The notes beneath the pieces were generated by a model, which was given only the letters and a program-made list of their open reading frames with translations, searched no databases and was not told where the DNA came from. Below are positions 988 to 59,842 of a stretch of 64,000 nucleotides of DNA, one piece after another. The first letter of the stretch is position 1. Every line of letters begins with the position of its first letter. The position numbers and the translations under genes are program-made. The DNA is from an uncultured Prevotellaceae bacterium (GTDB taxonomy: Bacteria > Bacteroidota > Bacteroidia > Bacteroidales > Bacteroidaceae), in assembly GCA_947176895.1 (NCBI GenBank), contig CAMWSK010000003.1, forward strand, positions 84,827 to 148,826, given 5' to 3'.

Positions 988-1119
988 TGTGAAAGGATCG
1001 CCGCGCCCGGACATACCCGGGTGAAGAGGAGGCCGCGCAGTAATAATCTTACGGCGCGGCCTCTTTCCTTGTGCCGCACGAAACAAATTTTCATGCCGTT
1101 TTGCAAAGCCTTCAAAAAG

Positions 1120-1195
1120 GCATGTGCATGTTTCGGGAAAAACATGCTCATCTTTTTGAAAAACGTGTTCATGTTTTTCAAAAACATCAAGATGT
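1120..1195. repeat. 21-bp-period dyad array, locus A (4 dyads)
   Basis: GCATGTGCATGT (1120), ACATGCTCATCT (1142), ACGTGTTCATGT (1163), ACATCAAGATGT (1184); spacing 22/21/21. Confidence 0.85.
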
Positions 1196-1354
1196 TTTTT
1201 CGGGGGCTTGGGGGGAAGGAGGATTTTACAGGTGTTATAAATTCATCGAGCTCACGATGACCAAAGGTTTTGGCTATAAAATTTATTTGGGAAAAACATG
1301 GTTTATGTGCTCATGAAAAGCGTTTTAATTTTTCCACATTTCATATATTTGTCT

Positions 1355-4578: not shown

Positions 4579-4701
4579 ATTTCATCAAAGGACTGCGAGT
4601 GTTCTGTAAAATCACCAATAACGCGAGTTTGATGAAATCGGAATAAACTTGAAACGGTCATCAAGCCGCAGATATACCCCATGTTTAGGGTGCTGTAAAC
4701 C

Positions 4702-14512: not shown

Positions 14513-14589
14513 ACATGTGGATGTTTTGACAAAAACATGAACACGTTTTTGAAAAACATGAACATGTTTGAGGCAATACATGAGCATGT
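14513..14589. repeat. 21-bp-period dyad array, locus B (4 dyads)
   Basis: ACATGTGGATGT (14513), ACATGAACACGT (14535), ACATGAACATGT (14556), ACATGAGCATGT (14578); spacing 22/21/22. Confidence 0.85.
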
Positions 14590-27064: not shown

Positions 27065-27103
27065 AAACATCGCGATGTTTCAACAAAAACATCGCGGTGT
27101 TTT
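27065..27103. repeat. 21-bp-period dyad array, locus C (2 dyads, CG-centred), possibly acting as terminator
   Basis: ACATCGCGATGT (27067) and ACATCGCGGTGT (27089), 22-bp spacing, within A/T tracts; between convergent genes. Confidence 0.75.
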
Positions 27104-31190: not shown

Positions 31191-31244
31191 ACATGAACAT
31201 GATTTTAAAAAACATGAACACGTTTTTGAAAAACATGAACATGT
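31191..31244. repeat. 21-bp-period dyad array, locus D (3 dyads)
   Basis: ACATGAACATGA (31191), ACATGAACACGT (31212), ACATGAACATGT (31233); spacing 21/21. Confidence 0.85.
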
Positions 31245-39192: not shown

Positions 39193-39304
39193 AGTGCAGA
39201 GGCAAGAAAAAGTGTTTTTTTCTTGTGTTTCAAAAACAGAAAACGGCAAAAGCAACTCTTCCGGCGCGGCCTTGCAAAACGCCGTTTGCAGAGTCTTCAA
39301 AAAG

Positions 39305-39380
39305 ACATGTGCATGTTTTGGAAAAAACATGTTCATCTTTTTTTGAAACATGTTCATGTTTTTCAAAAACGTGTTCATGT
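39305..39380. repeat. 21-bp-period dyad array, locus E (4 dyads)
   Basis: ACATGTGCATGT (39305), ACATGTTCATCT (39327), ACATGTTCATGT (39348), ACGTGTTCATGT (39369); spacing 22/21/21. Confidence 0.87.
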
Positions 39381-39482
39381 ATTTTTCGGGGGCTTGGGGA
39401 CGGGGATTTTTTACAGACAACCAAAATTCATCTGACTTATGCTTTGTGCGTGGATTTTATTGTGCGTGTGCGAAAAAAGACG

Positions 39483-59723: not shown

Positions 59724-59777
59724 ACATGTTCATGTTTTTCCGAAACGTGTTCATGTTTTTCAAAAACATGTTGATGT
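59724..59777. repeat. 21-bp-period dyad array, locus F (3 clear dyads plus a degenerate fourth)
   Basis: ACATGTTCATGT (59724), ACGTGTTCATGT (59745), ACATGTTGATGT (59766); spacing 21/21. Confidence 0.85.
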
Positions 59778-59842
59778 TTTGCCTGAAATGTGCGGATGTC
59801 ATTTTTTATCCGTCTTCATGCGTGAATGAAATTTCTTTTGCT

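Follow-up and report, generated by a model that had tools for sequence, protein, structure and literature searches.

Array E, the array under study, lies between two divergently transcribed genes coding for a Na+/H+ antiporter and an M24 peptidase. It is one of six intergenic arrays of short dyads in the window, by which the whole stretch of 64,000 nucleotides analysed here is meant. A preliminary description of this DNA had reported six such loci, and all six are present at the positions and with the dyads it gave. Two corrections apply to it. At locus F the three dyads are as described, but a degenerate fourth unit extends the array to 59799, and the arrays at loci A and E are not bare but belong to remnants of one longer repeat of approximately 207 bp. 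The features are the following:

Array A, 1120..1195, no strand: four dyads at 1120, 1142, 1163 and 1184, in steps of 22, 21 and 21 bp.
MITE remnant enclosing array A, 1090..1259, plus strand: the right terminal repeat survives at 1242-1259, and the left end does not.
Array B, 14513..14589, no strand: four dyads (22, 21, 22), bare, flanked by divergent ClpC-like and GyrA-like genes.
Array C, 27067..27100, no strand: two dyads (22) with the core CGCG, bare, in a convergent gap.
Array D, 31191..31244, no strand: three dyads (21, 21), bare, in a divergent gap upstream of an LptD-like gene.
Array E, 39305..39380, no strand: four dyads at 39305, 39327, 39348 and 39369, in steps of 22, 21 and 21 bp.
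MITE remnant enclosing array E, 39280..39444, plus strand: part of the leader, then the array and the tail, and at about 39427-39444 a degenerate right terminal repeat.
Array F, 59724..59799, no strand: three dyads and a degenerate fourth (21, 21, 22), bare, in a divergent gap.

The reported spacing of 21 or 22 bp was borne out. With at most one mismatch per dyad, the window contains 14 neighbouring pairs, nine of them 21 bp and five 22 bp apart, and no other short spacing between neighbouring dyads. As a shuffle-type control, 60 order-2/3 Markov sequences of the window yielded no pair at 21/22 bp. TRF independently detected four of the six loci (A, D, E and F), B and C being under its threshold. 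A search of the window against Rfam returned only tRNAs and no match to the arrays.

The preliminary description had proposed a scan of the genome and its relatives with a spaced motif. The source genome (G000; 2.42 Mb in 53 contigs, 88% complete) contains 221 matches to the spaced 37-bp two-dyad pattern when up to three mismatches are allowed, and 61 to the exact two-dyad pattern; neither pattern has a single match when reversed. The same 37-bp pattern, with the same tolerance, has no match in any of the 138 congeneric genomes. A full reading of 451 kb of G000 yielded 34 arrays, from which a total of about 180 per genome is estimated. The cassette, as we call the array with its usual complement of four dyads, is private to one rumen-type Bacteroidales species within its genus. 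Because an array with a CCTC core is found in identical form at two contig ends (C1:20-96 and C7:18-51), the assembly is probably broken by the repeat and its copies are undercounted. Matches in G029 and G068 were rejected as family members, being short non-coding arrays with other linkers and unrelated neighbours, and so was a match in G002, which looks like a plain direct repeat. With regard to a phage origin, no match was found in viral contigs, and a search of open-licence papers retrieved no description of this dyad-array repeat.

The dyad of the cassette is AAACATSNNSATGTTT, and successive dyads are joined by the linker TTTTTSAAAA in a 21-bp step or TTTNNNNAAA in a 22-bp step. In the 71 arrays collected, four units were found in 47, three in 13, two in 6 and five in 5. 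Their spacing orders are chiefly 22-21-21 (or the reverse) and 22-21-22, so the clustering at 21-22 bp predicted for other genomic copies holds. A symmetrised consensus of the 22-21-22 arrays keeps the AAACAT and ATGTTT arms and the A/T borders, and carries little information in the four-base core and in the mid-portion of the 22-bp linkers. Neighbouring cores in bare arrays are alike in direct orientation, with 2.57 matches compared with 2.03 in shuffles at 21 bp, and 2.14 compared with 1.59 at 22 bp; no likeness in inverted orientation was seen relative to the shuffles. A long hairpin between units of G000 was rejected, since neighbouring cores are direct and not inverted repeats.

The cassette has spread as a whole, because dyads hardly occur outside arrays and position-specific variants recur between loci, in bare and MITE copies. 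With up to two mismatches, 125 of the 16-bp dyads lie in arrays, four are solitary and intergenic (about 2.2 expected) and two are coding. A second dyad type (approximately AAAACRCCGCGGCGTTTT), also with a 21-22-bp period, was observed in G000 at C1:160430, C1:128462 and C2:62815 and in the left flank of C2:133685; once, a dyad of this type extends an ACAT array at a 22-bp step.

Comparison of the flanks separated one group of arrays with common sequence on both sides from a majority (about 49 arrays) with unrelated flanks. About 30% of the copies lie inside a MITE of approximately 207 bp, and the remainder are bare. Not all arrays sit between IS982-type ends: 19 of the 71 are flanked by a terminal repeat, 12 of these on both sides. 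The MITE consists of a left end, TAACGTGAGTTCGATGAA, a leader, the array, a tail and the inverted right end, and window loci A and E belong to it. Ten complete copies of this short, non-coding, multicopy element, found by their ends, are 205-211 bp long, align end to end and carry TAACGTGAGTTCGATGAA at both termini; two of the ten are identical. Inspection of their flanks by eye revealed no consistent duplication beyond a possible TA, the copies being old and degenerate. Among the ten copies, the two terminal repeats have mean pairwise identities of 85% and 89% and the array one of 85%, compared with 72% for the leader and 71% for the tail. This conservation of the array at the level of the terminal repeats, which a transposase has to recognise, suggests a constraint on the array, but gene conversion among copies could also cause the excess. 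Bare and MITE-embedded arrays share features of unit order, such as an ACGT variant arm toward the central linker (read, not counted), and therefore probably descend from one cassette.

A 522-bp element of G000 (C8:49019-49540) has the same ends as the MITE and similar subterminal sequence. It encodes a fragment that matches the IS982 transposase model NF033520 with an E-value of 7e-22, which is under the cut-off of the model, as expected for a fragment. One genome from a different genus of the family contains, next to an end of this kind, an open frame for a transposase of this type; no intact IS was found in the incomplete G000 assembly. We conclude from these sequence comparisons that the MITE is a deletion derivative of an IS982-family element, and that it would have either taken up the dyad cassette or arisen around it. 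An IS982-family transposase could have moved the MITE. G000 also contains shorter elements, 105-158 bp in length, that have these IS982-type ends and no dyad array (C6:31326, C29:19961, C19:7809 and C30:22603), and one such end of an array-less short element lies in the window at 4619-4636. In G170, two IS982-type ends about 10 kb apart (C6:93467-103532) enclose a transposase frame and a gene resembling those of tyrosine recombinases; the arrangement looks like an IS into which another element has inserted.

Contig C1 is collinear with relatives, and its synteny was used to locate orthologous gaps. Around the LptD gene the neighbours are not conserved, and 80 loci provided no orthologous gaps for C-E. 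The divergent gene pair around the MITE copy at C1:12980 is separated by 340 bp in G000 and by about 100-140 bp in four relatives, which is the difference expected for an insertion of approximately 209 bp. At the same gap, the sister genome G017 carries a four-unit array of different sequence with a 23-bp period. The convergent pair around the bare array at C1:19984 has almost no gap in two relatives, about 30 bp in one and about 100 bp in another; in one further relative the gap is longer and holds its own repeat with a period of about 22 bp. Conservation at orthologous loci, which had been put forward as a check, was not found: the arrays are absent from both gaps examined, and these are empty or otherwise filled in the relatives.

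One earlier proposal, that of a self-propagating non-coding repeat, is upheld by the repeated bodies, the IS982-type MITE ends, the empty orthologous gaps and the species-private distribution. We favour, with moderate confidence, a lineage-private dispersed intergenic repeat whose unit is the cassette, usually of four dyads, and whose array is kept via a dimeric DNA-binding protein. From the conserved arms, the variable centre and the rigid spacing we infer dimers of a sequence-specific protein side by side. Such a putative protein would recognise half-sites AAACATS and thereby cause the array to be retained, and several dimers would bind next to each other at a spacing of about two helical turns. 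The result would be a BIME-like protein-DNA array at gene borders, or an aid to the element's own spread. The putative protein-bound array may have a role for the host, such as chromosome organisation or insulation at convergent genes, or a role for the element. Judged by its sequence, the cassette changes more slowly than the surrounding DNA and so probably does something. As to the further proposals of cooperative operators or nucleoid-protein sites, a protein-bound array is the best guess for the conservation, but a dispersed operator set is disfavoured, since dyads are confined to arrays and bare arrays favour convergent gaps. Against the favoured reading, the 23-bp period of a family in the sister genome G017 weakens the strict same-face argument, and the bare majority of arrays has no recognised mobiliser.

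The alternative that survives best, although we regard it as unlikely, is a neutral or selfish repeat, in which a MITE and a minisatellite spread via transposition and slippage and the dyads have no function for host or element. Its privacy to one species, invariably intergenic position and MITE vehicle would all fit, as would the many locus-specific non-coding repeats of about 22 bp in relatives. It does not account well for an array as conserved as the terminal repeats and above the leader and tail of the same copies, nor for a unit number that is concentrated at four instead of being variable.

Improbable, in our judgement, is an element acting at the RNA level, either a bidirectional transcription terminator or a stabiliser of mRNA 3' ends made of tandem hairpins. 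Among the 34 arrays in the 451 kb of G000, 33 could be placed relative to genes (simple gene calls of our own), and all 33 are intergenic: 13 in convergent, 11 in co-directional and 9 in divergent gaps. The divergent setting of four of the six window loci, noted earlier, was thus a small-sample effect, and the argument built on it, that terminator function is thereby excluded, fails genome-wide. Bare arrays are enriched in convergent gaps (11/24; Fisher p 1.3e-4 compared with gaps of at least 50 bp) and lie closer to the 3' ends of genes (median 80 bp) than to the 5' ends (166 bp), and the folding energy of the arrays is low (mean z about -4.8), as this reading would have it. However, the excess of convergent over divergent gaps (11 compared with 6, among adjacent pairs of which 41 are convergent and 43 divergent) is not significant, there is no Rfam match, and the stems, rich in A/T, are part of palindromic sequence, which will fold well with any function. 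What counts against terminators is rather the pattern of arm changes. In 264 units, 129 changes are one-sided, three are two-sided without pairing and none of the 132 changed arm pairs is compensatory, an absence that is supportive and not decisive because the rule for detecting dyads (at most two mismatches) disfavours double changes. The core ends S..S are able to pair in only slightly more than half of the units in bare arrays. That compensatory changes are lacking favours protein recognition of DNA over a hairpin.

Very improbable is a regulon, in which sites for a transcription regulator would have arisen in place at many promoters. Conserved arms, variable centre, helical spacing and the divergent window loci would suit it, but the dyads are almost never single, bare arrays prefer convergent gaps, the 138 congeners show no trace, and shared bodies and variants of unit order show that copying took place. 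In iteron and multi-operator arrays, too, sites with a variable centre recur about every two helical turns, and these arrays belong to a single locus or a particular regulon; the cassette, in contrast, is present in many copies at unrelated gene borders and was propagated by copying.

Hardly credible, finally, is a REP/BIME proper spread by a RAYT (Y1) transposase. The cassette shares with REP/BIME short extragenic palindromes in clusters, hundreds of copies and species-specific families. REP/BIME elements have RAYT and GTAG/CGTC tags (PMC3733652), whereas a search for Y1_Tnp (PF01797) that did match in five control genomes gave no match in the assembly, which lacks about 12% of the genome, and neither a GTAG nor a CGTC tag is conspicuous in the units of the aligned arrays. 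The cassette differs further in its fixed spacing of 21/22 bp, in having mostly four units and in occurring in a MITE form.

TRF was used to survey similar arrays in 1.5 Mb of sequence from relatives, made up of 80 loci that come mostly from Bacteroidaceae/Prevotellaceae MAGs of rumen and gut. Non-coding tandem repeats peak sharply at periods of 21-23 bp, with 82 arrays compared with four at 19-20 and one at 25, and the periods of coding tandem repeats in these loci follow multiples of three. The non-coding 21-23-bp arrays are enriched in convergent gaps (26/75, p 5e-7), and stems of at least 6 bp are over-represented (13/91 compared with about 2.4 expected). G017 has two dispersed families, AACCAGTSACTGGTT with a period of 22 bp and GTTAACATAAC with one of 23 bp, and in both an array typically has four units. 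The AACCAGTSACTGGTT family is private to G017, where 19 exact pairs occur; the 138 other congeneric genomes have none. Most copies of the GTTAACATAAC family are inverted repeats of about 97 bp with four dyads, GC-rich ends and fold z-scores down to -11; these copies are MITE-like (G017 stretches L248-L263, e.g. C1:59959, C2:14955 and C2:31813). At least one four-unit 22-bp array was found in G066. Other Bacteroidia outside the family have few such arrays in a small sample of about 214 kb, and it may be chiefly this family that has the habit of arrays of about 22 bp. In the other relatives, most arrays are specific to their locus and not dispersed. A dispersed family in every species found no support in randomly sampled pairs, in which units of one genome were scarcely more alike than units of different genomes (p 0.09; two of 21 pairs above the 99th percentile); dispersed families are claimed for this genome and G017 only.

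The ACATSNNSATGT family described here, the AACCAGTSACTGGTT and GTTAACATAAC families of G017 and the G066 array together raise a wider and doubtful reading, in which cassettes of four dyads with a period of about 22 bp would form a general, unrecognised class of chromosomal elements in gut and rumen Bacteroidales. The private dyad of each species that has such cassettes would track a fast-evolving DNA-binding protein, and transposons, for example IS982 MITEs, would be one vehicle. Most descriptions of intergenic repeats in bacteria concern pathogens and a small number of well-studied groups. In the gut lineage studied here the arrays are abundant and private, have a preferred four-unit architecture and an identified transposon vehicle, and show signs that the array itself is under constraint. 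This opens a concrete test, namely whether a protein binds the arrays and changes between species along with the repeat, and since arrays of about 22 bp but with different sequences recur in sister species, the question is a general one.

The nearest described thing is BrickBuilt of Porphyromonas gingivalis, and REP/BIME is the nearest functional analogue. BrickBuilt is a 23-nt tandem repeat in a MITE, always intergenic, in 19 copies and nearly confined to a single species (PMC4596501). It has in common with the cassette the tandem repeat within a MITE, the intergenic position, the many copies and the occurrence of copies without leader and/or tail. The BrickBuilt unit is not reported as a dyad and its number varies from one to about 23, whereas here four dyads at 21/22 bp occur in about 180 copies; its ends are GAGACCTTTGCA-type and IS5-like (PMC4596501), whereas here they are IS982-type and most copies are bare. 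With units of 21/22 bp and other ends, the cassette lies outside BrickBuilt as defined by the 23-nt unit, its leader and tail and its GAGACCTTTGCA ends. The terminal repeat of MITE239 of P. gingivalis begins with ACGTGAGTTCGAT (PMC4596501, Table 2), the same 13 nt with which the MITE end found here begins. Unlike the MITE here, MITE239 has no reported tandem array. The same table lists ISPg3, with the end ACGTCAGTTCGA, in the IS5 family (PMC4596501), whereas the remnant here belongs to the IS982 family. Elements with nearly the ISPg3 end ACGTCAGTTCGA carry an IS982-family transposase in the genomes studied here, and the IS5 assignment may deserve a check.
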